Notes under the pieces: model-generated
Told to the model about the DNA's origin: nothing
Seen by the model: only the letters and a program-made list of their open reading frames with translations
Database searches by the model: none
Position numbers and translations under genes: made by a program
Source: a virus
IMG/VR virus record: IMGVR_UViG_3300025115_000058
Coordinates: 1-21,834 of that record
Length of the DNA stretch: 21,834 nt
Strand: one strand, 5' to 3'
In this document: positions 2,683 through 21,834 of the stretch, piece after piece
How the letters are laid out: each line of letters starts with the position of its first letter
How positions within the stretch are numbered: the stretch's first letter is position 1

Positions 2683-4722
2683 TCAGTATTCGGCCCCGTA
2701 CCCGGAGCCCCATCCACCTTTATCACGCTTCCTGCGCTTCGGTCCATCCTCGTCGTCCATGTGACTCTGGCGGCGATTCTCGATGCGCCGTCGCATGGAT
2801 TCGCCATCTGCGGTGCGATACGCGCAATTAGAAACAACCACCCCGCACGCGACAAACGCACCCATCACAGGCACCGTAGTACAGTAAACATCAGCCTTCC
2901 CGGCGGGACTCACGCTTAAAACTTTCACGGCACTTCCCAGAACAGGTCTTGATGTCCTTGAACCGTGTTCCCATGAAAGCGATCCCGCAGGAAGCGCAAA
3001 TTCGCTCAATGTCATCGACTCCCGATTCTCGCCTGTGCTTTGCTGCGCATTTTGGCGAGCAAAACTTCGCAATGGAGCAAAGGCACAGTCGCTTTCATCC
3101 ATCGCGTCAATGCGTTTCCATATGCCCTTGGTCGTCAGTATTCGATGGTCCGGGGTGGCCACCATCGTTTGCCCATTGGATAACATCACATTTACGACAT
3201 CCCTGGAGACGCCAGTCTTGAAGCCACCTGCGCATGGATACCAGCGACCATCGGTAGAAAGAACAAGATCGTCGTCGCGAAGATCCTTCACAGGAACGTC
3301 ACCACGACCAGTCGTTACCGGTGTATTTGACGCGATGCACGCATACGCTACCGAATCGTACCAATGGTCGGTGTCGCATTTCAGCGGCGTGTCACGTTTC
3401 TCCGGGTCCAGATTGTCGTTGTCGGCCGGAATCGTCGGGAGGGTCTTCACGATGTTGTCCGTCAGTCCCGCGAAAAAGCAGATTCCGGGCCGCTGCATCC
3501 CGCCGCCGTGAGAATCCAACCTCGCCAATACCCGCTCGGCGTTCATCTTCCTCGAACGCTTGTCCGCCTTCGTCCAGATAACTCCGTGCCTCGCCATGCG
3601 CTCCGCGTGAGAGTCCGCCGATGACACCTCGCCCCAAAGGTTGGTGTCGGCTGGTCCGGTGATCTTGGAACGCCTCCCGTGCCAAAGCCCCATCTTCTCC
3701 TCGATTCGGCGGATCTCCATCGCCACCTCGTCGCCGTCCTTGAACCGGAACGAATACTCCCGCTCGCAGATCAAATTGCCATCCGGGTCCACCGCCCACC
3801 AATGAACACACCCGTACGACTTGTAGCCCCAGTCCAGCGACCGGAACCTCGGCCAGTCCCCGGGAATCCGGAACGGCGGAATTACGTGCAAGTCCGGTCG
3901 CCAGTGCTCCGCGAAGTAGGAGTCCGCCGTCACCCACCAGTCGCCGTAAAGCAACGCCCGCTTGATGTGCTCGGGTCGCCCAAGGAGCTTCTTCTTGTAC
4001 TGCTCCACGAACCCCTTGTCCGGGTTGTCGTCGATGGTCGCCGGGATGTAGATGCGGGTTACGTAGTCCCCGTTGTCCAACTTCTGCCGCATCAGCTTCC
4101 GCCCCGATGGCGCAGGGTCAACGAACACATCGCGCACCCACCCCGGGCCTGGATTGGAAGCGCCTCGAACGCACGCCATTCGCCGAAGCACCGGATTCGT
4201 CGCACGGTTACGCGAGCAAATTTGCTGATACTGCGTGTCCGTGAACTGCGTCATCTCATCGAAGAAGATGTGGACGTAGGAGTGCGTGTAGTAGTTCTCC
4301 CATGAGTCCGGATCCTTGCAATGGCCGAAGACGAACTGCAAACCGCTGGAAAAAACGAAGGTCATCGTCTTTTCGCGGAAACGCACGTTCGGGTCGATGG
4401 CCTTGAACACCGGAGCCGCACGGCGAATCGTGGTATCGAGACCCGCGGTCTTACGACGAAGGTGTAGGCACTGGTCGTCGGCGAGCGTCCCCCACTTCAC
4501 GATTCCACGCTTGCAGAGCTCGTTCGCCACCACCACGACCGGCATGGCGTCGTGTAGACCCCACAGGGATTTGCCAGTGCCAGCCGCACCCGCCACCAAC
4601 GCCTCGTCTACTCGAAGACGATGGCACTCTTTTCCCCATGGGGAAGCCTGGTATATCCCGGGAATCTCCACGAAGTCAATCTCGTGAAGCCGATCTGTTG
4701 GGATATTCGACAGGTCCAGCAT
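2683..4722 (-). CDS. terL: Terminase large subunit, interrupted by an intein
   Basis: ATP-driven packaging motor and nuclease that cuts and pumps phage DNA into the prohead through the portal. The ATPase domain shows Walker A AGAAGTGKS (residues ~44-52) and Walker B VHIFFDE (150-156). The RNase H-like nuclease domain shows acidic residues at D297 (SLDWGY), D359 (PADTNLW) and D456 (HWYDSVAYA). Residues 462-632 are an intein placed five residues after the last catalytic Asp. Splicing would join ...DSVAYA to CAYRTADGE..., leaving a 508-residue terminase, a normal size. The ATG abuts the TAA of the glycosyltransferase gene (TAAATG). The C-terminus after splicing is basic and short. Confidence 0.93.
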   Translation of the reverse strand: MLDLSNIPTDRLHEIDFVEIPGIYQASPWGKECHRLRVDEALVAGAAGTGKSLWGLHDAMPVVVVANELCKRGIVKWGTLADDQCLHLRRKTAGLDTTIRRAAPVFKAIDPNVRFREKTMTFVFSSGLQFVFGHCKDPDSWENYYTHSYVHIFFDEMTQFTDTQYQQICSRNRATNPVLRRMACVRGASNPGPGWVRDVFVDPAPSGRKLMRQKLDNGDYVTRIYIPATIDDNPDKGFVEQYKKKLLGRPEHIKRALLYGDWWVTADSYFAEHWRPDLHVIPPFRIPGDWPRFRSLDWGYKSYGCVHWWAVDPDGNLICEREYSFRFKDGDEVAMEIRRIEEKMGLWHGRRSKITGPADTNLWGEVSSADSHAERMARHGVIWTKADKRSRKMNAERVLARLDSHGGGMQRPGICFFAGLTDNIVKTLPTIPADNDNLDPEKRDTPLKCDTDHWYDSVAYACIASNTPVTTGRGDVPVKDLRDDDLVLSTDGRWYPCAGGFKTGVSRDVVNVMLSNGQTMVATPDHRILTTKGIWKRIDAMDESDCAFAPLRSFARQNAQQSTGENRESMTLSEFALPAGSLSWEHGSRTSRPVLGSAVKVLSVSPAGKADVYCTTVPVMGAFVACGVVVSNCAYRTADGESMRRRIENRRQSHMDDEDGPKRRKRDKGGWGSGYGAEY
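2827..3339 (-). mobile_element. Mini-intein in the terminase nuclease domain (171 aa)
   Basis: Hint-type protein-splicing element. It begins with Cys (CIASNTPVTTGRGDVPVKDL, block A), has a block B core with ATPDHRIL, and ends with DVYCTTVPVMGAFVACGVVV followed by Ser-Asn and a +1 Cys. The penultimate residue is Ser instead of His, as in some DnaE inteins. The usual block F Asp is Cys and the His is Ala. No LAGLIDADG or HNH motif is seen in frame. Residues ~547-600 of the host protein have no intein character, and the same DNA encodes a cysteine-rich zinc-finger pattern in another frame (see the separate entry). Whether this intein still splices cannot be told from sequence. Confidence 0.9.
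2891..3094 (-). other. Out-of-frame double zinc-finger segment inside the terminase intein
   Basis: In the reading frame shifted from the terminase frame, the open stretch from 3094 to the TGA at 2893-2891 encodes two cysteine clusters, FCSPKCAAKHRRE and ICASCGIAFMG...KTCSGKCRESFKR. These are typical of treble-clef/zinc-ribbon modules. If one T were added to the TTT at 3079-3081, the intein frame would read CAFCS into this module, giving CxxC-x5-CxxxC. Removing one base near the T-run at 2918-2921 would return to the block F frame (SVSPAGKADVY). There is no ATG or GTG in this frame upstream of the clusters and a stop precedes it at 3097-3095, so it is not an ordinary separate gene. Two compensating frameshifts, recoding or sequence error are the alternatives. 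Confidence 0.7.
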
Positions 4723-9385: not shown

Positions 9386-9733
9386 CTAGAACGGCACGTC
9401 GTCATCTTCCGATTGAGCGGCGCGTTCTCCGGGAGCCGGCTTTTCTGGCTTGCGGCCGCCGGTCTGAGATTGGCGAACTCGCCACGCCCGGAGGTCATTG
9501 AAGAACTTCCCCTCGTAGCTGCGCCCTTCGACCTCGAAGAGCACATCCACCTCATCGCCCTCGGTGTACTGAAAGTCGGTGGCCATCTCCCCCACCACCT
9601 TGAACTTGGGCGTTTGGGCCCGGTACTTGGTTGGGAACTCGATGGCGAACTCACGGGTTGGGAACTGCTTCGCCCCCATCAGCTTCAGGTCCCCCACCCA
9701 CACCACTTTGCCCGAGATTGAGAATGACGACAT
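9386..9733 (-). CDS. DUF3127 ssDNA-binding (SSB-like) protein
   Basis: A 115-residue OB-fold-like protein. The pattern SISGKVVWVGDLKLMG...FPTREFAIEF...FKVVGEMATDFQYTEGDEVDVLFEVEGR...GKFFNDLRAWRV fits the DUF3127 family, thought to bind single-stranded DNA in phages. The tail is Gly/Pro/Lys-rich and ends in DDDVPF, the acidic-aromatic tip by which SSB proteins recruit partner proteins. It probably coats ssDNA during replication or recombination. The ATG has AAGGAG and AGGAA sites upstream that lie inside the preceding HTH gene, with which it overlaps by 83 bases in another frame. Confidence 0.82.
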   Translation of the reverse strand: MSSFSISGKVVWVGDLKLMGAKQFPTREFAIEFPTKYRAQTPKFKVVGEMATDFQYTEGDEVDVLFEVEGRSYEGKFFNDLRAWRVRQSQTGGRKPEKPAPGERAAQSEDDDVPF

Positions 9734-9998
9734 TTCCTTCTTGCTCCTTTTCTTTGTTCACCGGCCACCAGGCATTCCGAGGACCCTTCCCCAGAATCCC
9801 GCGCTTTGCGATTGCCTTCATATGACACGAAACTGCCTGCTTGGTCTTGATGCCAAGCGCCGCCCCAATCTCAAATAGCGTCGGCGGGAACCCGTTCTTC
9901 CGAACGCCCTCCAACACCATGAGGTAGACCTGGCTTTGAAGCCTCGTCAACGGGGTATTCTCATTGACCATTCTTCTCCCTGAGTTCTTTCCACCCAT
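9651..9998 (-). CDS. LexA-like winged-helix DNA-binding protein
   Basis: A 115-residue protein. Residues ~16-70 (LTRLQSQVYLMVLEGVRKNG, then FPPTLFEIGAALGIKTKQAV and a second helix ending AKRGIL) match the winged-helix DNA-binding domain of LexA. No Ser-Lys peptidase domain follows, so it is not a self-cleaving LexA; it may be a transcriptional regulator of the phage. The start ATG shares a base with the upstream TAA and has GGGAGG eight bases before it. The last ~27 residues lie over the start of the SSB-like gene in a different frame and are low-complexity (GGGPEADGGEA), so the functional part probably ends before the overlap. Confidence 0.72.
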   Translation of the reverse strand: MGGKNSGRRMVNENTPLTRLQSQVYLMVLEGVRKNGFPPTLFEIGAALGIKTKQAVSCHMKAIAKRGILGKGPRNAWWPVNKEKEQEGNVVILNLGQSGVGGGPEADGGEAVPNP

Positions 9999-10237: not shown

Positions 10238-10290
10238 CCTCAGAATATCCAGGTCAAGCCCATAATCCTGTAAGCCAGCTTACCAATACC

Positions 10291-10703
10291 GCACCGCGTC
10301 ATTACACACGCTGACCGGTAGCTTACCCGGTGGGTTTGCTTACTAAACTGGATCGCGTAAGCGAGACAGTTTAGGTTCCTACATCGCGCTGAGAGGTAGG
10401 TAGTGAGAGCCTTGCGGCTCTACGGTCACTTTAACCCTTGAACGTAGACCAACCGTTCAAGCTCGGTTGAGGCGAATCACGCGTGCCCTCTAACTGGAGC
10501 ATCGGCGCTTTTGCCCCTCACTCGTGAACTACGCTGACACCCCGTTTCCTACGACTCCACTTGATGCGCCAACCTGAAGATCTGCACGTAGGCCCCGGTA
10601 TAGCCCCCCAGTTGTGCAGCAGGCCACGGCGTTCAGTCGTAGCGAGGTGAAAACAACACAAGTACTCATTGAGCACCGCTGAGGTTAGCGCGTGACGCGG
10701 TGC
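10291..10703 (+). ncRNA. Candidate large structured RNA (~410 nt)
   Basis: This stretch has no plausible gene but is dense in RNA helices. A perfect 11-bp helix closes it (10291-10301 with 10693-10703). Inside is an 8-bp helix with one G-U (10309-10316 with 10683-10690). Then comes a hairpin at 10343-10374 with 8 bp, tandem G-A mismatches, 4 bp and a GTAA tetraloop. Further hairpins lie at 10378-10400, 10402-10430 (GAGCC-TTGC-GGCTC core) and 10437-10461 (CTTGAACG/CGTTCAAG). A long imperfect arm runs 10549-10642 (8, 5, 4 and 6 bp). The GNRA loop, G-A pairs and G-U pairs all favour the + strand. It resembles in style, not in recognised sequence, large ornate phage RNAs such as GOLLD or ROOL. 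No clear promoter is seen. Confidence 0.72.
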
Positions 10704-11036
10704 AAAGTCAAATCTCGATTTCTTGGATTTTTCGCGGTGGGGGTATACACGGAACGGGACACCCCCGTTCCCCTGGGGGTACCCAACGTGCTCATCGACA
10801 ATAGTACAATAAATACGCGGGCTTACGCCACGCTCCCACAGCGCGGGCCACTCTCAGTAGCTACCAGTGCAGTACAAGCGTGCCCCCCCTCTTTTCGCCC
10901 GCCTCCATGGATTCAGCGCAAGCTACGTACGCCTGAAGCACGCTCGCTGCGCTCGCTTTTGTGGCTACGCCACCGGAAGGGAACGCTCGCAAAGCCTCGC
11001 TCACAGGTCCATTGAAGGCGGAGTAGACGGAGCCTC
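10704..11036. other. Non-coding stretch with short hairpins
   Basis: No gene is supported here. Open frames crossing it translate into Arg/Ser/Pro-rich sequence without family features. Visible structure: a hairpin at 10751-10771 (GGAACGGG/CCCGTTCC), flanked on both sides by GGGGGTA. Another is a GTGGC-TAC-GCCAC hairpin near 10970. The stretch around 10945 is rich in GCTCGCTGCG-like short inverted repeats. A T-rich run at about 10726-10733 just after the structured RNA could assist termination. Confidence 0.5.
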
Positions 11037-11111
11037 TATCTATAGATGCTTGCCGTGAAGGCGGGGACAGCAGACCCCACCCCCACCCCGCCCATATCTA
11101 TAGATGCTTGC
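11037..11111. repeat. Pair of 17-bp direct repeats around a G/C hairpin
   Basis: TATCTATAGATGCTTGC occurs perfectly at 11037-11053 and 11095-11111, each containing the palindrome ATCTATAGAT and followed by a similar GT..AGGCGG. Between them lies an inverted repeat GGCGGGG/CCCCGCC with a cytosine-rich run. The second copy overlaps the end of the HTH gene. Possible roles are binding sites, an origin or a recombination site; none is shown. Confidence 0.6.
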
Positions 11112-11518: not shown

Positions 11519-11575
11519 AAAAAAAACACAAAAAAAGTTATTGACACTTGACCGGAGTCAAGGTATCTTAGATTC
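11519..11575 (+). promoter_or_regulatory. Strong rightward early promoter, leaderless, with spacer operator
   Basis: TTGACA (11541-11546), 17 bases, TATCTT (11564-11569), six bases, ATG at 11576. Two A-tracts just upstream resemble an UP element. The spacer is filled by the inverted repeat CTTGAC-CGGA-GTCAAG (11547-11562), so a bound repressor would block polymerase. It probably drives the early rightward operon. Confidence 0.75.
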
Positions 11576-11704
11576 ATGAACAAGACGAAGCGAACGGCAC
11601 TAGAGATGATGCAAGGGCAAGACCGCGAGGAGATGATCACCATGACCGTCATGGTGGCGGTAGGCATCATCGCATCAGTCATCGGAATCTTCGTCAAATT
11701 CTAA
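11576..11704 (+). CDS. 42-residue single-pass membrane peptide
   Basis: A short gene placed directly behind a strong promoter, with the ATG six bases after the -10 box (no leader, no ribosome site). The first ~20 residues are charged (MNKTKRTALEMMQGQDREE). They are followed by one hydrophobic helix (TVMVAVGIIASVIGIFV) ending in KF. It would insert once in the inner membrane. As the first early gene it could act on the host membrane or exclude other phages, but this is inference; no family is recognised. Confidence 0.6.
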   Translation: MNKTKRTALEMMQGQDREEMITMTVMVAVGIIASVIGIFVKF

Positions 11705-11709
11705 CCCCG

Positions 11710-11731
11710 GAGGGGGGCCTCCGCCCCCCTC
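11710..11731 (+). terminator. GC hairpin after the first early gene
   Basis: GAGGGGGGC-CTCC-GCCCCCCTC, a perfect 9-bp stem, with no T-run behind it. It stands where the repeated hairpins stand after other early genes but lacks their flanking sequences. It may be an attenuator or mRNA-stability element rather than a true terminator. Confidence 0.5.
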
Positions 11732-11761
11732 ACTAACCCGACCCAAAAAGGAAACCCGACC

Positions 11762-12010
11762 ATGAAGAACACAGCAACCCGACCGGACGATACCTTGACT
11801 GTCTCTCAAGAGCTATTCGAGATCGCAACGGCCGCTAAGCGCCTAGCGGAACGCACTATGGCGCTGGCGGAACGCGCACTCTCAGAGGCGGCCGACACTG
11901 GCGACCTCGAACAAGTAACGGCCGCTGAACTTGCCTTGTCCGCAGCATCGTCCGCTATCACGGCCGCCTCCGATGCTCGGGCAGCATGGATGGCAAGCGT
12001 CAAGTTCTAA
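11762..12010 (+). CDS. Small Ala-rich helical early protein
   Basis: An 82-residue protein made almost entirely of predicted alpha helix (AAKRLAERTMALAERALSEA, then AASSAITAASDARAAW). The alanine spacing suggests an amphipathic or coiled-coil helix pair. No family is recognised. An AAAAGGAAA site precedes the ATG in a leader ending CCCGACC, which is shared by the following early genes. It resembles the next gene in composition, so the two may be distant duplicates. Confidence 0.65.
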   Translation: MKNTATRPDDTLTVSQELFEIATAAKRLAERTMALAERALSEAADTGDLEQVTAAELALSAASSAITAASDARAAWMASVKF

Positions 12011-12014
12011 CCCT

Positions 12015-12064
12015 TGGGCGTCGTTCGAGGGGGTGAGCTTCTCACCCCCTTCATAGGACACCTA
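12015..12064 (+). repeat. Intergenic hairpin repeat, copy 1 (type A)
   Basis: A 10-bp stem (12028-12050) AGGGGGTGAG/CTCACCCCCT with loop CTT, between conserved flanks GGGCGTCGTTCG and TTCATAGGACACC. The outer arms TTGGGCGTC and GACACCTAA also pair with one G-U and one mismatch. Confidence 0.75.
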
Positions 12065-12093
12065 AGCTAACCAACCAACAAAGGAAACCGACC

Positions 12094-12363
12094 ATGAGCC
12101 AGAGCCAGAATCTCGAACAAGCCACCGCCGCAGTTGAAGCCGCCCTCCGCGCAGCATCGCGCGCAAATGAGGTCGCCGCATTCGCCCTTGAAGCTGCAAG
12201 GGCTTTGCATAGGACTTTGAATAGCGCAACGTTGCGTGAACTAAATATGAAACGCGCCGTTGCTGCGGCGAATAAAGCCAATCAGGCGCACGTAATCGCT
12301 ACCCAAGCCGCAGAGGAGGCCACCTGTGAAGCGGTCAAGCTGTGCAACGCGCTGCCACGGTAG
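12094..12363 (+). CDS. Ala-rich helical early protein
   Basis: An 89-residue, alanine-rich, predicted all-helical protein (EQATAAVEAALRAASRANEV; later MKRAVAAANKANQAHVIATQ). It lies between two copies of the hairpin repeat and has AAAGGAAACC as ribosome site. Low sequence complexity prevents any family call. It may be a paralogue of the gene at 11762. Confidence 0.65.
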   Translation: MSQSQNLEQATAAVEAALRAASRANEVAAFALEAARALHRTLNSATLRELNMKRAVAAANKANQAHVIATQAAEEATCEAVKLCNALPR

Positions 12364-12367
12364 CCCC

Positions 12368-12420
12368 TTGGGCGTCGTTCGAGGGGGTGAGCTTCTCACC
12401 CCCTTCATAGGACACCTAAA
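12368..12420 (+). repeat. Intergenic hairpin repeat, copy 2 (type A)
   Basis: Nearly identical to copy 1: a 10-bp stem (12382-12404), loop CTT, flanks GGCGTCGTTCG and TTCATAGGACACCTAAA. Confidence 0.75.
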
Positions 12421-12451
12421 GCCAACCCGACCCACGAAAGGAAAACGACCA

Positions 12452-12619
12452 ATGAAGACCGCAGAATATCTCACCGCCGACAGCCTCCCGCCGACCCTTG
12501 ACTGGGAAGACGAACCCACCCTCCCGGATGCGTTTGCCAAGCTCAGCCCCTCGGATTTCGCGAGGCTGTGGGACGAGCAACCTAGGGCATTCGCCCGATT
12601 GATGGAGGTGGAGATATGA
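12452..12619 (+). CDS. Small acidic early protein
   Basis: A 55-residue acidic protein (MKTAEYLTADSLPPTLDWED..., with FARLWDEQPRAFARLMEVEI). The ATG at 12452 follows AAAGGAAAA; an earlier in-frame ATG lies in the hairpin repeat and is not used on this reading. The stop overlaps the next ATG (ATGA), so it is coupled to the next gene. Function unknown. Confidence 0.65.
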   Translation: MKTAEYLTADSLPPTLDWEDEPTLPDAFAKLSPSDFARLWDEQPRAFARLMEVEI

Positions 12620-12861
12620 GCCGTGCCGAGGCTGTACAGCGAGCCGTCGAGCTGGCGGGGACACGCGATGTGGCTTGGTTTCAAGGGCGTCCATCCATAT
12701 CCGAGGATTCGCCCCGTGAGGCATTGATCGCTTTCCTCGTTTGGAACGACGGTAACGGCATCTGGACCGACGACGACCTCATCTGTGAGGGATTGGAGCC
12801 GATGACCCTTGACGAGGCTTGGGAAGCCATCGGGAGTCTTCTATCAGACGCGATGGATTGA
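12616..12861 (+). CDS. Small acidic protein of unknown function
   Basis: An 81-residue protein (MSRAEAVQRAVELAGTRDVA..., then ALIAFLVWNDGNGIWTDDDL). It is predicted to be a compact helical domain, acidic at the C-terminus. Coupled to the preceding gene by ATGA. No family is recognised. Confidence 0.65.
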   Translation: MSRAEAVQRAVELAGTRDVAWFQGRPSISEDSPREALIAFLVWNDGNGIWTDDDLICEGLEPMTLDEAWEAIGSLLSDAMD

Positions 12862-12911
12862 ACGCCCTTCGAGGGGGGATCTACGGATCCCCCCTTCATA
12901 GGACGCCCAAT
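12857..12911 (+). repeat. Intergenic hairpin repeat, copy 3 (type B)
   Basis: Stem 12872-12895, AGGGGGGATC/GATCCCCCCT, with the tetraloop TACG closed by C-G (UNCG class). Flanks are ACGCCCTTCG and TTCATAGGACGCCC. The outer pair is ATTG (12857-12860) with CAAT (12908-12911). Confidence 0.75.
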
Positions 12912-12939
12912 TCAAACCCGACCGAAAGGAAACCCGACC

Positions 12940-13305
12940 ATGAAGACCATCCACGTTACCATTGAGCTTGTGAACGACGACGGCGAGCCGGAGGCGTTCG
13001 AGGTCCCGGCCTGTTACGAGGTCTGCGGGCGCTGCATGGGCGAGGGTCGATACGTTGACCCGCGATTCGACGGTCATGGGATCACTGAGCGCGAGTTCTC
13101 CGAGGAGTGGAGCGACGACGAGCGCGCCGCTTATTTCGCTGGCCGTTATGACGTGACGTGTTCTGTTTGTTCCGGCCTCCGCGTTGTTCGGGTCATCGAC
13201 CGTGACAGTGTCGAACCGGAACTCCTCGCACGGATTGACGAGAGGGCGCGCGAGGAAGAATTGTATCGGCAAATGGTCGCCGCTGAGCGACGGATGGGGG
13301 CTTAA
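12940..13305 (+). CDS. Zinc-finger-like phage protein
   Basis: A 121-residue acidic protein with two CxxC pairs, VCGRCMGEGRYV (residues ~29-40) and VTCSVCSGLRVV (~71-82). Together they could bind one zinc ion, in the style of DnaJ cysteine-rich motifs. Between them lies a negatively charged region (EREFSEEWSDDERAA). The arrangement resembles a small zinc-binding protein seen in other phages, whose role is unknown. AAAGGAAACCCGACC precedes the ATG. Confidence 0.7.
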   Translation: MKTIHVTIELVNDDGEPEAFEVPACYEVCGRCMGEGRYVDPRFDGHGITEREFSEEWSDDERAAYFAGRYDVTCSVCSGLRVVRVIDRDSVEPELLARIDERAREEELYRQMVAAERRMGA

Positions 13306-13319
13306 CCCGTTGATGGAAG

Positions 13320-13374
13320 ATTGAACGCCCTTCGAGGGGTCATCTTCGGATGACCCCTTCATAGGACGCCCAAT
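13320..13374 (+). repeat. Intergenic hairpin repeat, copy 4 (type B)
   Basis: Stem 13335-13358, AGGGGTCATC/GATGACCCCT, with TTCG loop closed by C-G. The arms differ from the other copies in both strands, preserving pairing. The outer pair ATTG/CAAT is retained. Confidence 0.78.
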
Positions 13375-13381
13375 TTAATAC

Positions 13382-13435
13382 TTGACCGCTTTACCGAAGT
13401 AAAGTAAACTAGCTTATCAGTTGGCAATCACGCCA
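13382..13435 (+). promoter_or_regulatory. Rightward promoter with spacer operator, before the clamp-like gene
   Basis: TTGACC (13382-13387), 17 bases, TAAACT (13405-13410). The spacer holds the inverted repeat CTTTAC-CGAA-GTAAAG (13389-13404), the same design as the promoter at 11541. A small hairpin TTGGC/GCCAA (13421-13436) lies in the leader. Confidence 0.65.
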
Positions 13436-13462
13436 AGCAACCAACCAACAAAGGAGCCGACC

Positions 13463-14023
13463 ATGCGATTCAATAAAACCCTCAAGATCGAAAATGCACT
13501 TTCAAATGACCCCACCCGGCCGCATATCGCGAACGCTTGGTATGACGTAGAGAACAAGACGTTGACCGCTACCGACGGCCACCGTTTGACCCGGATTGCC
13601 GTCACCGTCGATGAAGGCGATCACACTGGATGGATTACTGCCGATGCAATCAAGGCAGCTCGGAAGGCGGTCCCGAAGAGGGTGGACGATGCCCAGATTC
13701 TCGCCAATGGGGCGCTCGTTATTCCCAAGGGCCCAACGTTTGCACGGCCCTCGGATGAGGTGAAGCCACCACCGTTTGACCAGGTTATCCCGGACCCCTA
13801 CAGCGAGACCGAGACTACCCGGAAGCGCTCCGAGTTTTTCGGAATCAATCCCGACTATCTGTCCGACGCCATGGCGGCAATGGGCGGGAAGGGTATCGCG
13901 ATCTACCAGGCCGGTGGGAATCTCGACCCTGTGATCGTCACTCCGCGGCCATGGAAGAGCCAGGCGGAGTTCGAGCAATTGAAGCGCGAGTCTATCACCG
14001 TCGTCATGCCGATGCGCCTTTAG
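13463..14023 (+). CDS. Miniature DnaN-like sliding-clamp protein
   Basis: A 186-residue protein with clear marks of the bacterial DNA polymerase III beta clamp but only half its length (~366). Residues 35-45 LTATDGHRLTR match the VATDGHRLA segment of clamp domain II. ALVIPKG, PFDQVIP (compare PDYRRVLP) and INPDYLSDAMAAM follow in the clamp order. The last residues VVMPMRL equal the end of E. coli DnaN. It therefore covers a shortened domain II and III. It may act as a processivity factor, or bind clamp partners as a decoy (inference). AAAGGAG lies at the usual distance before the ATG. Its own promoter precedes it. Confidence 0.72.
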   Translation: MRFNKTLKIENALSNDPTRPHIANAWYDVENKTLTATDGHRLTRIAVTVDEGDHTGWITADAIKAARKAVPKRVDDAQILANGALVIPKGPTFARPSDEVKPPPFDQVIPDPYSETETTRKRSEFFGINPDYLSDAMAAMGGKGIAIYQAGGNLDPVIVTPRPWKSQAEFEQLKRESITVVMPMRL

Positions 14024-14073
14024 GCGTCGTTCGAGGGGGGATCTTCGGATCCCCCCTTCATAGGACACCTAAA
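14019..14073 (+). repeat. Intergenic hairpin repeat, copy 5 (type A)
   Basis: Stem 14034-14057, AGGGGGGATC/GATCCCCCCT, TTCG loop closed by C-G. The outer arms TTTAGGCGTC and GACACCTAAA pair with one mismatch. The left arm includes the stop codon of the clamp-like gene. Confidence 0.78.
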
Positions 14074-14100: not shown

Positions 14101-14481
14101 ATGAACAAACATCGACTTGAGACCATCGCCAGGCTTGCCAGGCTGGGATTTTCCGACCGTGATGTGGATACTCTCATCCGTGCATCGGCAACGCTCCACA
14201 CTTGGGCAGAGCACGAGTGCAACGGCGCCATTCAGCGCGACGAAGAAACGGGTAGACCCTACTGGCATTCGACCTACGACGGCCGGCGGTTCTCGAGAAC
14301 CTCGGACCGGGAGACCGGAGCTTTGAAGCGCGCACGCGCTATTGTCGAGGCCCACGGTTTCACCCTGTACCATCAGGGCGATCCGCGCGGTTGTTCGCTC
14401 TATATCCTCCGGCCGGGAGATGTGCCGGAAGGCGGGAACCCCGATTCCTACTACTACCGGGGAATGGCGGTGGTCCCATGA
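14101..14481 (+). CDS. Conserved small phage protein
   Basis: A 126-residue protein. The C-terminal part (FTLYHQGDPRGCSLYILRPG, then a YYYRGMAVV ending) resembles a small protein found in many phages of Proteobacteria whose function is unknown. The N-terminus (HRLETIARLARLGFSDRDVD) is helical. Start chosen at the ATG after AAAGGAACCGACC; the frame stays open further upstream through the hairpin repeat but without a ribosome site. Coupled to the next gene by ATGA. Confidence 0.7.
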   Translation: MNKHRLETIARLARLGFSDRDVDTLIRASATLHTWAEHECNGAIQRDEETGRPYWHSTYDGRRFSRTSDRETGALKRARAIVEAHGFTLYHQGDPRGCSLYILRPGDVPEGGNPDSYYYRGMAVVP

Positions 14482-16735: not shown

Positions 16736-19432
16736 ATGCAACTTACGCTTGTGAGGCCGCCGGCCACCGAACCACGCGATCCAATGGGACACCTGCGCGA
16801 CTACCAGCGCGCAAGCGTCCTTGGGGTCGAGACTTCGCTTGGCCGCGCGGACTCGGCGCTCCTGGTCCTGGCCACGGGATTAGGTAAATGTCTGGGGCGC
16901 GGTACGGGCGTTATGCTCTCTGACGGTCGCGTCGTTCCCGTTGAGGATGTTCGCGTCGGGCATCGCCTCATGGGCCCAGATGGCCGACCGAGGAATGTCC
17001 TTAGCACCACTCGTGGCACTGGTCCCTTGTATCGAATCGTCCCGGTGAAGGGAGATCCTTGGATTTGCAACGACGCCCATGTGTTGACTCTAAAGCACAC
17101 CGTCACGGGAGATGTGGTTGATATCGCTTTGCCGGATTATCTGCGCAAGGACAGGACATTTCGCCATGTGATGAAGCAGTTTGCCGTGCCCGTTGAAGCA
17201 TTTGAAAACGGCCGGACCGAGCTCTCCGTGGACCCGTATTTCCTGGGTGTCTGGCTTGGAGATGGCCGCAAGGATCTTTCCCAGGGGGTCCAAGTCTCAA
17301 AGCCTGATGTGGAAATCAGGAATGCGTGTGAGTCGATGGCAACGTCGTGGGGACTCGCTCTCAGGGTCGACAATTACAAGTCGTGTCCGACCTACAGGAT
17401 CGTTACTGAGGGAAGAAGAAACCCACTCAAGGACGAGATGGTGTCCTTGATGGATGGAACGCCGCGCGTTCCGCCCGTCTACTTGACGGCGGCTCGCCAT
17501 CATCGGCTTGCATTGTTGGCTGGCTTCCTGGACACGGACGGCTATGCGACCGGCGGCGGATGTGAGTTTGTCCAAAAGTCAAAGGACATCGCGCAAGGCA
17601 TGGTTTTTGTCGCCCGTTCCCTTGGGCTCAAAGCTGTTGTCTCCACGAAGACTGTCGGCCACGGCGATTATGTCAGGGTGTTCTTGTCCGGCGACTTCTC
17701 GGAAGTTCCATTTAGAATCAAGAGAAAAAAGCCCGAGGCAAGGCGCATAAACAAAGATCCGTTGCGCACGGGAATTTCGGTGGAGCCATTTGGCGACGGT
17801 GAATACTTCGGGTTCACTCTTGATGGGGACGGGAGGTTTCTACTTGGGGACTTCACCGTTACCCATAACACCGAAACGGCTATCGCCGTAGGGGCTCGCC
17901 ATCTCGCCGCCAACCCGGAGGGCCAGGTAGCGGTTCTCGCTGGCCGACAGGGGCTGGTGACGCAATTTGCGGAGCGCATCAAGCGCACCACCGGAGAGGA
18001 GGCCGAGATCGAAATGGGCGCCATCCGGTCGTTGCACTCCCGGTGGATCGTGTGCTCAAAGGACTCGCTCCACGCTGGACGCCTCAAGGGCATTCCGCAC
18101 CTCAAGCCGTCGCTGGTAATCGTCGATGAGGCCCACCACGCCGCGGCCGACTCCTACAAGAAGGTGCTCGAACACTTCGGAACGAAGACACTCGGACTCA
18201 CCGCTACCCCAGATCGGGCCGATGAAAAGGCGCTCGGAGCTGTGTTTGATGAGGTTGCCTACCAGTACGAGATCGACGACGGCATTAGGGACGGTTGGCT
18301 TGTCCCCATCAAGGTCTTCCGTTGCGTCGTTGACTCCCTGGATTTTTCATCGGTCAAGACCACCGCGGGAGACTTCAACCAGGCCGAGCTCGACGCCCTG
18401 ATGAAGGTCGAACAGGTAGCCCACAAGACGGTGCAGGTCGCACTTCAACACGGCGCCGAGAAAGCCCGGGGACTCGTGTTTACCACCAGCATCGAGAACG
18501 CCGACCTGCTCACGGAGGTATTCAACCACTACGCTCCCAAGTCCGCCGTATCGGTGGATTCCCGAAAGAAACCCGAGGACAACGCCCGGGCGTTCGCCGC
18601 CCACAAGTCCGGCGACGCTAAATGGATGGTCAACGTCGGGATGTATACCGAGGGCATGGACGATCCAGCGATTGACTTCATCGTAATGGCTCGCCCGACG
18701 AAATCCCGTGCGCTCTACGCCCAGTGCCTCGGTCGCGGCACCCGAACGCTGCCCGGAACAGTAACGCCCGCCATGAGCACGGCAGAGCGCCTGGAAGCTA
18801 TCGCTGCAAGCGCAAAGCCCTGCGCCGTGGTGCTGGACATTTCGGGCACCGCAGGGCGCCACAAGCTCGTGGGACCGGAGGACGTGCTGGGCGGCAAGTA
18901 CCCCGAGAGCTTGATTGCCAAGGCGAAGCGCAAGATCGCCGCATCCGGCAAGGTGGTCAACGTCGAGATGGCACTGGACTACCTGCGCCGCCAAGCTGAG
19001 ATTGCCAAGCGGCAGAAGATCCGCGATGCCGCAAAGGTAATGGCCAAAGTCGGATCTCGCCTCGAAGCGGTGGACCCATTCACGACGTTTGGGGTCGATG
19101 CTCCAAATTCATGGGGCGAACCCAACCGATACGGCTTCAAGCGCCCCACTCCAAGGATGGTCGAGGTCTTGAGGAAGATCGGAATCGAGCCGACCAGTAA
19201 ATTGTCTCACCGGGAAGCGTCTGCGCTCTTGACCGAGATGTCCCGCCGACGAGAACAAGGCCTCGCCACGTTCAAACAGCTTCGTACCCTGCGGCGTGCC
19301 GGCATCGTGGACTGCGCCAAGTGGTCTTTCATCAAGGCAAGCCGGACCATCGACGAGCTGGCAAAGGCAGGTTGGCGAATGTCCGCCGACCGCGTTCGAG
19401 AACTCGAAGCAACCGTGAGGGATATGGAATGA
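16736..19432 (+). CDS. SF2 DEAD/DEAH-type helicase, interrupted by an intein
   Basis: An 898-residue precursor; 571 residues after splicing. Motif I is ATGLGK|TETAIA, split by the intein between K51 and T379. Motif II is VIVDEAHH (461-468), motif III LTATP (488-492), then the MYTEGMDDP region (636-644), and motif VI QCLGRGTRT (663-671). These define a superfamily 2 helicase of the ResIII/UvsW-like kind, acting in replication or recombination. The C-terminal ~170 residues (VLRKIGIEPTSKLSHREAS, KQLRTLRRAG) form an extra helical domain, possibly DNA-binding. The stop overlaps the next start as ATGA. Confidence 0.9.
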   Translation: MQLTLVRPPATEPRDPMGHLRDYQRASVLGVETSLGRADSALLVLATGLGKCLGRGTGVMLSDGRVVPVEDVRVGHRLMGPDGRPRNVLSTTRGTGPLYRIVPVKGDPWICNDAHVLTLKHTVTGDVVDIALPDYLRKDRTFRHVMKQFAVPVEAFENGRTELSVDPYFLGVWLGDGRKDLSQGVQVSKPDVEIRNACESMATSWGLALRVDNYKSCPTYRIVTEGRRNPLKDEMVSLMDGTPRVPPVYLTAARHHRLALLAGFLDTDGYATGGGCEFVQKSKDIAQGMVFVARSLGLKAVVSTKTVGHGDYVRVFLSGDFSEVPFRIKRKKPEARRINKDPLRTGISVEPFGDGEYFGFTLDGDGRFLLGDFTVTHNTETAIAVGARHLAANPEGQVAVLAGRQGLVTQFAERIKRTTGEEAEIEMGAIRSLHSRWIVCSKDSLHAGRLKGIPHLKPSLVIVDEAHHAAADSYKKVLEHFGTKTLGLTATPDRADEKALGAVFDEVAYQYEIDDGIRDGWLVPIKVFRCVVDSLDFSSVKTTAGDFNQAELDALMKVEQVAHKTVQVALQHGAEKARGLVFTTSIENADLLTEVFNHYAPKSAVSVDSRKKPEDNARAFAAHKSGDAKWMVNVGMYTEGMDDPAIDFIVMARPTKSRALYAQCLGRGTRTLPGTVTPAMSTAERLEAIAASAKPCAVVLDISGTAGRHKLVGPEDVLGGKYPESLIAKAKRKIAASGKVVNVEMALDYLRRQAEIAKRQKIRDAAKVMAKVGSRLEAVDPFTTFGVDAPNSWGEPNRYGFKRPTPRMVEVLRKIGIEPTSKLSHREASALLTEMSRRREQGLATFKQLRTLRRAGIVDCAKWSFIKASRTIDELAKAGWRMSADRVRELEATVRDME
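16889..17869 (+). mobile_element. Full-length LAGLIDADG intein in the helicase P-loop (327 aa)
   Basis: Splicing domain: Cys1 (CLGRGTGVMLSDGRVVPVED), block B WICNDAHVLTL, block F YFGFTLDGDGRFLLGDF and the C-terminal VTHN with Thr as +1 residue. In block B the usual TxxH reads NDAH. The homing endonuclease has two LAGLIDADG-like helices, FLGVWLGDG (169-177) and LAGFLDTDG (261-269), with acidic residues D176 and D268 intact. It therefore looks active both as splicing element and as homing enzyme. Insertion between the P-loop Lys and Thr is a common site for inteins in NTPases. Confidence 0.93.
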
Positions 19433-19782
19433 GCAACGTCAGCGGCATTGGATTCGGCGACGGCAACGGCGATGGATTCGGCGACGGCAACGGCGATGGC
19501 TACGGCTACGGCGGCGGAGACGGCGGAGCCGGCAACGGTAACGGCGGAGCCGGCAACGGTAACGGCTCCGGTGATGGCAACGGAAGCGGCAGCGGCGGAG
19601 GCGGCGGTAACGGCGGCGGCAGCGGTAGCGGCAACAGCGGCGGCGGCGGCAGGGGCAGCGGGGGCGGATACGGCAACGGCATAGGCCACGGTAGGGGCAA
19701 CGTCAGCGGCATTGGATACGGCGACGGTAACGGCGACGGCAGAGGCTTCAACTACGAGTCAGCAACGCGGAGGGCGCGATGA
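19429..19782 (+). CDS. Glycine-rich cassette protein 1
   Basis: A 117-residue protein in which Gly is nearly every second residue (GDGNGDGFGDGNGDGYGYGG). The other positions are Asp, Asn, Ser, Tyr, Arg and His. It ends FNYESATRRAR, a version of the C-terminal tag shared by the family. It starts as ATGA on the helicase stop and ends as ATGA on the next copy. The strict GX pattern could form polyglycine-type or Ca-binding structure (inference). The same DNA is open in other frames only because of the hexamer-like repeat. Confidence 0.72.
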   Translation: MSNVSGIGFGDGNGDGFGDGNGDGYGYGGGDGGAGNGNGGAGNGNGSGDGNGSGSGGGGGNGGGSGSGNSGGGGRGSGGGYGNGIGHGRGNVSGIGYGDGNGDGRGFNYESATRRAR

Positions 19783-20036
19783 AACCCGCTGAAAACGAAG
19801 TGACGTACTACGGTCACGGCCACGGCGATGGCATGGGCGGAGGCGGATACGGCAACGGCGACGGAGGCGGCAGGGGCGAAGGTAGCGGCGACGGAAGAGG
19901 CAACGGCTGCGGCGGTGGCGACGGCATCGGCGACGGCTTCGGTAGTGGATGGGGCGGCGGGAGCGGCAGCGGGGGCGGCTCCAAATACGGCTTTGGCTGG
20001 GACTACAAATCATCGACGCGGAGGGCGAAAGAATGA
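19779..20036 (+). CDS. Glycine-rich cassette protein 2
   Basis: An 85-residue member of the same family. The N-terminus reads NEVTYYGHGHGDG, a version of the THYG start. The middle is (GX)n, and the end is FGWDYKSSTRRAKE. Overlaps both neighbours by ATGA. Unlike the tail alone, the middle varies freely in length between copies. Confidence 0.72.
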   Translation: MKPAENEVTYYGHGHGDGMGGGGYGNGDGGGRGEGSGDGRGNGCGGGDGIGDGFGSGWGGGSGSGGGSKYGFGWDYKSSTRRAKE

Positions 20037-20311
20037 GCGACGACGACTGGGGCATTGATGTCGAGCACGAGGAACCGGAAGTAGATCCTGCTTCCACCCG
20101 ATTCATGGCCGACAAGCGGGCGCAAGCTCTCCACACCCGAAGGGTCGATAACGTCGAGGCGCAAATCCGGGCAAACCGCCCTGGCTGGAAGCTGATTTCG
20201 TCGTGGCCCCACCTTCGGCTCTGGGAAACCGATCAATTCACTTACGCCGCCCATTCGGACGGCAAACCATTCATCGTGTCGGCGGTTATGCCGCGAGAAG
20301 GAAAGAAATGA
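20033..20311 (+). CDS. Small unknown protein between glycine-rich cassettes
   Basis: A 92-residue protein. The acidic start MSDDDWGIDVEHEEPEVDP is followed by a basic helical part (KRAQALHTRRVDNVEAQIRA) and a beta-rich end. No family is recognised. ATGA overlaps on both sides. Confidence 0.65.
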   Translation: MSDDDWGIDVEHEEPEVDPASTRFMADKRAQALHTRRVDNVEAQIRANRPGWKLISSWPHLRLWETDQFTYAAHSDGKPFIVSAVMPREGKK

Positions 20312-20619
20312 GCATCGAGAAGTGGGGGCTTGAAGTCAGCGATGCGCAAATGCTTCGCGTGAAGTTCGAGGCCAAGCGATGGAAGGACATTGCTGTCTTG
20401 GCAAAGTCGCTGGCGAACATCCTGAGAAAGTCGGAGGGCCGGCTGAACACCGATTCCGCCGTGGTGATGCTGCATCAGGTGGCCGAGCTTGCGAAGAATT
20501 GCACGCCAGTTGCCATATGCCCATGGTGCAACGCCGACGGTGGCGAATGTTCGAGGTGCATGGGGACCGGTGCTATCGGTCCGTTGTTGATGGACGCTGC
20601 AAAGGAGATGAAGAAATGA
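20308..20619 (+). CDS. Small protein with a zinc-binding CxxC pair
   Basis: A 103-residue protein. The helical N-terminal two thirds (VLAKSLANILRKSEGRLNTD) is followed by CPWCNADGGECSRCMGTGAI, two CxxC motifs nine residues apart with the CxGxG style of DnaJ-like zinc sites. Function unknown. Coupled by ATGA to both neighbours. Confidence 0.67.
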   Translation: MSIEKWGLEVSDAQMLRVKFEAKRWKDIAVLAKSLANILRKSEGRLNTDSAVVMLHQVAELAKNCTPVAICPWCNADGGECSRCMGTGAIGPLLMDAAKEMKK

Positions 20620-20870
20620 ACAAGACCTATGGGAAATACGATTCGCTCAAGGCTATTTCTGAATCGGAACAAGGGTATTACAACCTCGGCCAGATCCACG
20701 GCGACAAGTGCGGCTTTCTGCGCGGGACACTCGCAGCGATGAAGCTCATTGCGCTTGAGGGAGATCGCTTGTCGAAAGAGGGGGACTTCAAAGCCGCCGA
20801 GTTGGCGAATGAGTTTGTGGAAAAACTCAGGGCGACCATCGAGCCAAAGCGGAATGGGCCAGTGCAATGA
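20616..20870 (+). CDS. Small helical unknown protein
   Basis: An 84-residue protein, probably mostly helical (GKYDSLKAISESEQGYYNLG ... GDFKAAELANEFVEKLRATI). No family is recognised. It lies between the CxxC protein and the third glycine-rich cassette, with ATGA overlaps on both sides. Confidence 0.65.
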   Translation: MNKTYGKYDSLKAISESEQGYYNLGQIHGDKCGFLRGTLAAMKLIALEGDRLSKEGDFKAAELANEFVEKLRATIEPKRNGPVQ

Positions 20871-21409
20871 GCACGCGCTACGGTCACGGCAACGGTGACG
20901 GCTGCGGCGACGGCTACGGCTTCGGTTTCGGCTACGGCAGCGGAAGCGGAAGCGGACACGGCATGGGCACCGGCGACGGCAGGGGCAGCGGATACAACTA
21001 CAAATCAGCAACACGAACAACAGAGGGCAAAATGAGCACGAGCACGAAGAAGAAGATCACGAAGACCAAAACCAAGGCCAAGAAAGCAACCAAGAGAGCA
21101 ACCGCGAAGAACCACCTCGGCAAGCTGGTTATCCTGCGCGGCTACCTGTCCGGTGTCCACATCGCGATCCTGCGCGACTACGGTCGGAAAACAGGGTGGA
21201 TCCGAGTAGATGGGGCTCGACGGCTCTGGTCCTGGCAGGGCGCAACCACGCTCGATGCGATCAGCCGCAACGGAGCGGCGGAGACAGGGTGCCGCGTGAC
21301 AGAAGCTGTCGATGACCTCGAGATCAAAGTATCGGACGTGTGCGAGATTTACCCGATGTCCGAAAAGGCGATCGCATGGGTGAATCGTCAACCGGTGTGG
21401 ACGCTGTAA
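20867..21409 (+). CDS. Glycine-rich cassette 3 fused to a DUF6948-like domain
   Basis: A 180-residue protein. Residues 1-50 are a cassette (TRYGHGNGDG ... YNYKSATR). The reading frame then continues through TTEGK into MSTSTKKKITKTKTKAKKAT and a folded domain (KLVILRGYLSGVHIAILRDY ... ARRLWSWQGATTLDAIS) resembling the phage DUF6948 family. In other copies a stop follows the cassette tag. Here the stop is missing, so the two are joined. The internal ATG at 21032 has AGAGGG before it and could start the 125-residue domain alone. The Lys/Thr-rich linker suggests nucleic-acid binding (inference). Confidence 0.72.
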   Translation: MSTRYGHGNGDGCGDGYGFGFGYGSGSGSGHGMGTGDGRGSGYNYKSATRTTEGKMSTSTKKKITKTKTKAKKATKRATAKNHLGKLVILRGYLSGVHIAILRDYGRKTGWIRVDGARRLWSWQGATTLDAISRNGAAETGCRVTEAVDDLEIKVSDVCEIYPMSEKAIAWVNRQPVWTL

Positions 21410-21468
21410 GCAGACTGGCATCCCGTGCGTGCGCTCACAGATCGGCGCACGGGACCGAGGGCAACACG
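21410..21468 (+). promoter_or_regulatory. Intergenic hairpin before cassette 4
   Basis: CCCGTGCG (21422-21429) pairs perfectly with CGCACGGG (21446-21453). GAGGG follows as a ribosome site for the next gene. No T-run is present, so an attenuator or cassette-border structure is as likely as a terminator. Confidence 0.5.
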
Positions 21469-21546
21469 ATGAAAAAAACGCATTACGGAGGCGGCGAGGG
21501 CGGCGGCTACGACTACAAATCCGCGACGCGGAAGGCGCAACGATGA
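21469..21546 (+). CDS. Minimal glycine-rich cassette 4 (25 aa)
   Basis: MKKTHYGGGEGG, then GYDYKSATRKAQR: the conserved start and end of the family with almost no glycine middle. It shows that the two ends are the constant parts and the middle is expandable. Overlaps cassette 5 by ATGA. Confidence 0.62.
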   Translation: MKKTHYGGGEGGGYDYKSATRKAQR

Positions 21547-21776
21547 GCGACGAAACGCATTACGGTGACGGCATCGGCGGCGGCAGCGGCAGCGGCGACG
21601 GAATCGGCTACGGCGACGGATTCTGCAGCGGCGACGGAAGAGGCAGAGGCAGCGGCGAGGCCGACGGCAGTGGCAGGGGCCACGGTAGCGGCATGTGCAT
21701 GGGCAGCGGCAGCGGCGACGGTAGGGGCGGGGTGGGCTTCGACTACAAATCGGCAACACGGAAGGCGCAACGATGA
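21543..21776 (+). CDS. Glycine-rich cassette protein 5
   Basis: A 77-residue protein starting MSDETHYGDG, with a GX-rich middle (GGGSGSGDGIGYGDG) containing two cysteines, and ending VGFDYKSATRKAQR. The tag is identical to that of cassette 4. The tag DNA ends in GGAAGGCGCAACG directly before the next ATG and so carries the next ribosome site. Confidence 0.7.
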   Translation: MSDETHYGDGIGGGSGSGDGIGYGDGFCSGDGRGRGSGEADGSGRGHGSGMCMGSGSGDGRGGVGFDYKSATRKAQR

Positions 21777-21834
21777 GCGACGCAGAAACACACTACGGCA
21801 GCGGTAGCGGTAGCGGCAGCGGAGGCAGTAGCGG
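21773..21834 (+). CDS. Glycine-rich cassette 6, cut by the window end
   Basis: Begins MSDAETHYGSGSGSG and runs off the window. Same start as cassette 5. The array therefore continues to the right. Confidence 0.65.
   Translation, partial: MSDAETHYGSGSGSGSGGSS

Follow-up and report, generated by a model that had tools for sequence, protein, structure and literature searches.

The early genes and their intergenic hairpins

The analysed window of 21,834 bases is the entire IMG/VR record IMGVR_UViG_3300025115_000058. Structural genes are read leftward, starting at about 9.7 kb, and the genes for early functions and replication rightward from 11.58 kb. Genes for a YqaJ exonuclease and an Erf annealase are located near the early region, and no T7-like polymerase was seen in the 21.8-kb record. 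A small protein with a LexA-type DNA-binding domain (9651-9998, minus strand; E 8.5e-11) is a candidate early regulator. Between the divergent gene blocks lies a long, apparently non-coding stretch with GC-rich inverted repeats, both in the window (10240-11100) and in the related contig IMGVR_UViG_3300042260_000527 (L091/L094/L096; L091 1960-3520, minus strand).

Several other features lie outside the early region. The large subunit of the terminase (gene 2683-4722, minus strand) is interrupted at 2827-3336 by an intein-like insertion some 167 aa long. This insert is missing in L088, a phage that is 99.2-99.5% identical over 9 kb, and appears to be a recent gain or loss. The helicase gene (16736-19432, plus strand) has an apparent intein between the N-terminal part and the helicase core, judged from the sequence and the positions of PHROG matches. 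At 19404-21830 (plus strand), several low-complexity Gly-rich ORFs have a common C-terminal YKSATRRA/KAQR motif and degenerate 6-18-bp repeats beneath. In the relative, a short ORF of repeated RI(N/D/S)xRI units immediately precedes YqaJ (L093 2505-2675, plus strand).

The early genes concerned are small and all on the plus strand. ORFs of 82 aa (11762-12010, upstream of hairpin H1), 89 aa (12094-12363, between H1 and H2), 55 aa (12452-12619) and 81 aa (12616-12861, upstream of H3) are without a Pfam match; the third overlaps the fourth, with no hairpin between them. An ORF of 121 aa (12940-13305) has H3 on one side and H4 on the other. A clamp-like protein of 186 aa (13463-14023, upstream of H5) has weak PHROG matches that include a DNA polymerase processivity factor. 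Downstream of H5 follows an ORF of 126 aa (14101-14481), in place of which the relative has a different 56-aa gene. Between 11,704 and 14,101 there are six gaps between non-overlapping early genes, and five of these contain one family hairpin each. The first gap, after the ORF at 11576-11704, has a plain 9-bp hairpin instead (11710-11731, plus strand; fold z -3.3), which scores just 9.2 bits with the R1 model. The gene overlaps at 12616, 14478 and 14663 have no hairpin.

All five intergenic units of the original prediction are present, on the plus strand. H1 (12013-12066; R1 model 54.8 bits, fold z -5.0) is of subtype 1 and has a CTT loop, as has its twin H2 (12367-12420). The two 54-nt units are identical except for the last base, which leaves about four independent copies in addition to that of the relative; as a 55-bp direct repeat, H1 and H2 flank one ORF. 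H3 (12857-12911; cUACGg loop) and H4 (13320-13374; cUUCGg loop, then a promoter-like site) form subtype 2 and are two compensated base pairs and one loop base apart. H5 (14019-14073) is of subtype 1 with a cUUCGg loop. H3 and H5 overlap the preceding gene: their outer arms include the TGA stop of the ORF at 12616-12861 and the TAG stop of the clamp-like gene, respectively. The arm pairs and loops named earlier (TTCG in H4 and H5, TACG in H3, CTT in H1 and H2) were correct.

Each unit is 54-55 nt long and consists of a 10-bp inner stem, a 4/5-nt internal loop (TTCG/TCATA) and an 11-position outer arm. The order on the plus strand is left arm (11 positions), TTCG, a 10-base stem arm (A-GGGG-N5), a loop of 3 or 4, the second stem arm, TCATA and the right arm (11 positions). 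The internal loop is near-invariant and kept in every copy, while the stems change. The record contains CCCCTTCATAGGACRCC exactly five times and no instance of the reversed control pattern. The motif TTCATAGGAC follows the inner stem in place of a U-tract, and the lack of a T-run was confirmed. The flanks had been described as unpaired. The first T of TTCATAGGAC, however, is paired and closes the 10-bp stem as A-T; in the relative, a C stands opposite a G.

A start-associated leader, AAAGGAAACCGACC followed by ATG, lies after H1 (12080-12096, plus strand; six matches, 0.01 expected). Similar plus-strand leaders are located at 11747, 12437 (a variant), 12925, 13450 and 14088. The repeat AAAGGA-N0-3-CCGACC has five plus-strand matches at starts in the window and seven in the relative, with practically none expected. 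It is present on more genes than the hairpins, in the window and in L096 (9638-12868). Two plus-strand promoter-like sites were found as consensus matches alone: TTGACA-17-TATCTT (11541-11569) upstream of the first early ORF, and TTGACC-17-TAAACT (13382-13410) between H4 and the clamp-like gene. Small inverted repeats lie between the hexamers at 11541-11576 and 13382-13410 (TTGACcggaGTCAA; TTTACcgaaGTAAA). The start of the first early ORF nearly coincides with the transcription start predicted from the promoter-like site, which suggests a leaderless mRNA.

Folding, covariation and distribution

Each of the five hairpins folds better than all 200 dinucleotide shuffles of its plus strand, with z from -4.7 to -6.3. 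Base pairs were counted in an alignment made by hand, the positions of which were checked against the DNA, MAFFT having misaligned the stem of the relative. In the inner stem, 50 of 50 pairs over five distinct copies are standard. Changes are two-sided in nine of the ten pairs, and none of 5,000 shuffles pairs equally well. The compensating stem-arm differences of the original prediction were thus borne out. It had also held that the outer arms stay paired in two subtypes. They do so in both, but imperfectly on the plus strand, with 43 of 55 standard pairs versus 51 of 55 on the minus strand; the mismatches are mostly A.C on plus, that is G.U on minus. Total outer-arm pairing on the plus strand is above that of shuffles (mean 39, fraction 0.008), while the three two-sided pairs are a count often reached by shuffles (fraction 0.18). 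Because the copies are few and related, the evidence from covariation is rated strong in the inner stem and moderate in the outer arm.

A further copy was found in the related contig, at L096 10841-10895. It lies directly after the orthologous clamp-like gene (protein 65% identical) and is orthologous to H5, with the same fold topology. A model from H3-H5 detects it at E ~1e-8, and the copy was not used in building. Its inner stem differs at most positions from those of the window, and its closing pair is G-C versus A-T. The clamp gene stops with TGA instead of TAG inside the outer arm, with compensating changes in the right arm. The genes adjoining the clamp differ between the two contigs; hairpin and leader stay. 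Selection on hairpin pairing is well supported in these sequences because of the inner-stem covariation and this independent, diverged copy of the same topology. To that extent, the earlier interpretation is supported in part. A function as RNA is more tentative, given the outer-arm A.C mismatches on the plus strand and the folding of H3 and H4, which is 9.8 kcal/mol better on the minus strand. The difference between the strands is near zero in the other four copies. By stability, the top three 60-nt folds of the window are those of H3, H5 and H4 on the minus strand.

In the relative, the gap that precedes the clamp gene holds a hairpin (L096 10213-10275) of unrelated sequence and similar multi-loop build, with a 9-bp stem, a 2x2 loop, 4 bp, a 1x1 mismatch and 4 bp. 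A similar build with a different sequence would fit selection on shape.

No further member was found by pattern scans, blast and the covariance model in 2.9 million viral contigs (IMG/VR), 84,980 GTDB genomes, phage and plasmid collections and Rfam. The collection scans used exact patterns (exact and gapped in IMG/VR) and would miss copies with changed flanks. Pattern matches in IMG/VR and GTDB beyond the relative lacked the stem or lay in unrelated sequence, in a number close to chance expectation. No similar DNA was detected in the phage or plasmid collections, and no Rfam family reached its gathering threshold. The covariance model search in related phages, as proposed earlier, yielded the L096 copy, whereas 80 YqaJ-related loci gave one weak GC-rich match (E 0.05). 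Portal searches found only four relatives, one of them including the early region, and none in GTDB genomes; the clamp search returned the same single relative only. As far as these searches reach, the hairpin family is known from two contigs only and appears new as a family. Integron attC sites were considered for the cassette-like layout and rejected: inspection by eye showed no RYYYAAC/GTTRRRY core, and an integrase was not noticed either.

Likeness to RNase III sites of T7-type phages

Early mRNA processing of the T7 type is a textbook case, and most knowledge of it comes from T7 relatives. The nearest known counterparts of the window hairpins are the RNase III sites R0.3, R0.5, R1, R1.1 and R1.3 of T7/T3-type phages. 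The T7 RNase III sites and the annotated sites of T3, phiYeO3-12 and gh-1 were folded in the same way as the window hairpins, with T3 positions taken from the record and T7 sites placed at what we take to be their cut coordinates. Like T7-type signals, the window hairpins are irregular, with an upper stem of ~9-11 bp, an asymmetric internal loop and a lower helix. The likeness is closest to T7 R1.1. H1 folds as ((((((.(((.(..(((((((((((...)))))))))))...).))).)))))) and T7 R1.1 as ((((((.(((.(..((((((((((....))))))))))...).))).)))))). These structures, and that of H5, are the same except for one pair and the terminal loop. They have in common the lower helix, a 1x1 mismatch, three pairs, a 1x1 purine mismatch, one pair, a 2x3 loop and a stem of 10-11 bp. 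The L096 copy has the same form, and H3 and H4 resemble T3/T7 R1. The 1x1 mismatch of the lower helix is at the same position in H1, H2, H5, the relative, T7 R1.1 and T3/T7 R1. The annotated gh-1 sites do not have this form in their folds, and the T7 R0.7 site gave no hairpin.

The internal loop of T7 R1.1 has 4 nt/5 nt (PMC6121014). Counted in the same manner, the loop of the window hairpins is GUUC/CAUAG. The 2x3 loop is UC/UAU in T7 R1.1 and UC/CAU in the window hairpins. The loop sequence is CCTTCATAGG in the window, CCTGAATAGG in T3/T7 R1 and CCTTCATGA in the K11 and K1F sites; CCUGAAUAGG of T3/T7 R1 corresponds to CCUUCAUAGG of the window. The two groups have a loop with weak likeness in sequence, roughly YUCR.AGG / CCUUYAURR. 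They are also placed alike, between early genes and shortly before the next start codon. The hairpin ends 27 (H1), 31 (H2), 28 (H3), 27 (H5) and 29 nt (relative) before the ATG, in comparison to 19-36 nt in five annotated T3 sites.

Sequence models gave less. The model R2, built from T7, T3 and phiYeO3-12 sites only, recovers the sites of K11, K1F and MmP1 (E down to 1e-8) and therefore generalises. Of all positions in the window and the relative (35 kb), the top-ranked one was H2, with H1 in fourth and H5 in fifth place; these three matched over their full length in the correct register. None of the R2 matches to window hairpins was significant (E 0.5-3); the best, H2 with E 0.52, falls short of even the poorest site included in the model alignment (MmP1, E 1e-4). 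H3 and H4 were aligned in the wrong register, and the L096 copy was not listed. The reverse search of T7 with the R1 model found no site at significance. Scored against random loops, the loop alone showed weak similarity, with p 0.025 for H3 and H4, 0.05-0.10 for H1, H2 and H5, and 0.21 for the relative. The loop of H3 and H4 beats 99.3% of the permutations of its own letters.

There are differences as well. In known T7-type sites, the transcribed strand folds better in 14 of 15 cases, by 2 to 14 kcal/mol and often by 6-14; this preference is absent in the window hairpins. They also differ from T7/T3 sites in the distinct loop sequence, the GC-rich stems and the UNCG or tri-loops, and the phage, with YqaJ and Erf, belongs to another group. 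RNase III substrate demands vary between bacteria (PMC6121014). Because the R2 and loop scores are weak and the strand preference is absent, the likeness lies in shape and place; the sequence adds weak support, and one feature expected of an mRNA element is absent. By analogy, the hairpins probably work like T7-type sites. They were filed as non-members of that family because the R2 matches were not significant and the transcribed strand did not fold better.

Proposed function and comparison with known systems

The hairpins are tentatively interpreted as RNase III-type processing or stability signals in an early polycistronic plus-strand transcript, like the T7 early-gene sites; the chance of this is put at somewhat less than even. 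Each hairpin would form about two turns of irregular double helix, from the mismatched outer arm, the asymmetric internal loop and the 9-11-bp upper stem. Cleavage by the host RNase III would fall within the 3' side of the internal loop (CAUAG) or close to it. The upstream mRNA would keep a protective 3' hairpin, and the downstream gene would receive a short unstructured leader (AACCAACCAACAAAGGAACCGACC) with an exposed Shine-Dalgarno sequence. A cut in the internal loop would give each gene a leader with the AAAGGA-N0-3-CCGACC repeat. We infer transcription and cutting of the hairpins, RNase III as the enzyme and the effect on stability. Of the options in the original prediction, the best fit is processing or stability, since the hairpins agree with T7/T3 RNase III sites in shape and position, even though R2 significance and transcribed-strand folding speak against it.

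Partial terminators or 3'-stabilising hairpins without a U-tract are an unlikely alternative, in which the inner stem would pause the polymerase or block exonucleases and tune the ratio of early genes, the outer arm being incidental. Such a role would suit the very stable GC-rich stems right after stop codons, the cUNCGg loops, as in T4 intercistronic hairpins (Tuerk 1988, cited in PMC8948821), and the position of H4, which has an operon end before it and a promoter-like site after it. Plain hairpins with different sequences are found at the ends of other genes (11710-11731 in the window; behind the 56-aa gene in L096), and T4 PeSL motifs join promoter and terminator, going by titles cited in PMC4503421. 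A terminator, however, needs no TTCG/TCATA loop, which is kept in all copies. The stem is followed by the 3' half of the outer arm, a U-tract is absent on both strands and the terminator scan did not list the hairpins. Recombination borders, another of the earlier options, are rated as quite unlikely. Here, short homologous borders and quasi-palindromes would serve early cassette exchange by the phage's YqaJ and Erf, both encoded nearby, and template switching at the DNA level could be the source of covariation by correcting imperfect palindromes. The direct repeat of H1 and H2 around one ORF is consistent with this, as are the exchanged genes beside the clamp with unchanged hairpin and leader, and the folding without transcribed-strand preference. 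Two-sided changes in nine of ten inner pairs, no unpaired cell and imperfect outer arms fit structural selection better than blind correction, and the distance to the start codon varies by no more than 4 nt, as in an mRNA leader.

A binding site for a phage or host RNA-binding protein that reads the internal loop, for antitermination like HK022 put or for translational control, would account for a near-invariant loop amid varying stems. It would also suit the short distance to the repeated start-associated sequence that lies downstream, an arrangement found in cluster K mycobacteriophages with their ESAS/SAS pairs (PMC3203893). No candidate RNA-binding protein was identified and Rfam gave no match; such a site is considered improbable. 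It is highly improbable that the functional molecule is an antisense RNA or the folded minus strand of the DNA. The better outer-arm pairing on minus (51 versus 43 of 55) and the top three minus-strand folds point in this direction. Every neighbouring gene, though, reads on the plus strand, where the cUNCGg loops also form, the wobble bias stems from about five changes versus two, and promoter evidence on the minus strand is absent in this region.

RNase III-type signals would have consequences beyond this phage. An unrelated uncultured phage with the same shape and another loop sequence would mean that RNase III reads shape, not sequence, across bacteria, and six natural hairpin variants exist for comparing the two. 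The rearrangement of runs of tiny early genes with independent expression kept would be accounted for. In a wider reading, which is unlikely, a lineage without detected kinship to T7 has its own RNase III signal family with a distinct fixed loop code, placed between nearly all non-overlapping early genes and also serving as borders for cassette exchange. Together with the start leader, the hairpins would make up interchangeable self-processing gene modules.

Comparable elements are described in other phages. The PeSL of T4-like phages is a stem-loop repeated between variable early genes and a possible border of gene shuffling, as here (Arbiol 2010; Comeau 2014, as far as reported via PMC4503421). 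An early promoter with a stem-loop at each copy, as expected of PeSLs, was not found; a promoter-like site lies beside H4 only, without a U-tract. The intergenic CUUCGG hairpins of T4 and phiEco32-like phages have cUUCGg loops as in H4 and H5 (cUACGg in H3). In the accessible part of PMC8948821 they are simple stems without a described conserved internal loop or outer arm, unlike the window hairpins. The start leader resembles the SAS of cluster K mycobacteriophages, where an inverted repeat, the ESAS, is located immediately upstream of the repeated start-associated sequence, as here (PMC3203893). Conserved 17-bp inverted repeats beside GGGATAGGAGCCC, as in cluster K, were not found in the window, where stems vary and the leader is AAAGGA..CCGACC. 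In the ESAS, the 17-bp repeats are fixed and the spacer varies; in the window hairpins, the covariation is in the stems and the internal loop stays constant, and the sequences are unrelated. The hairpin element is real, conserved and structural, and its kind is known from T7-type phages, the PeSLs of T4 and the ESAS.
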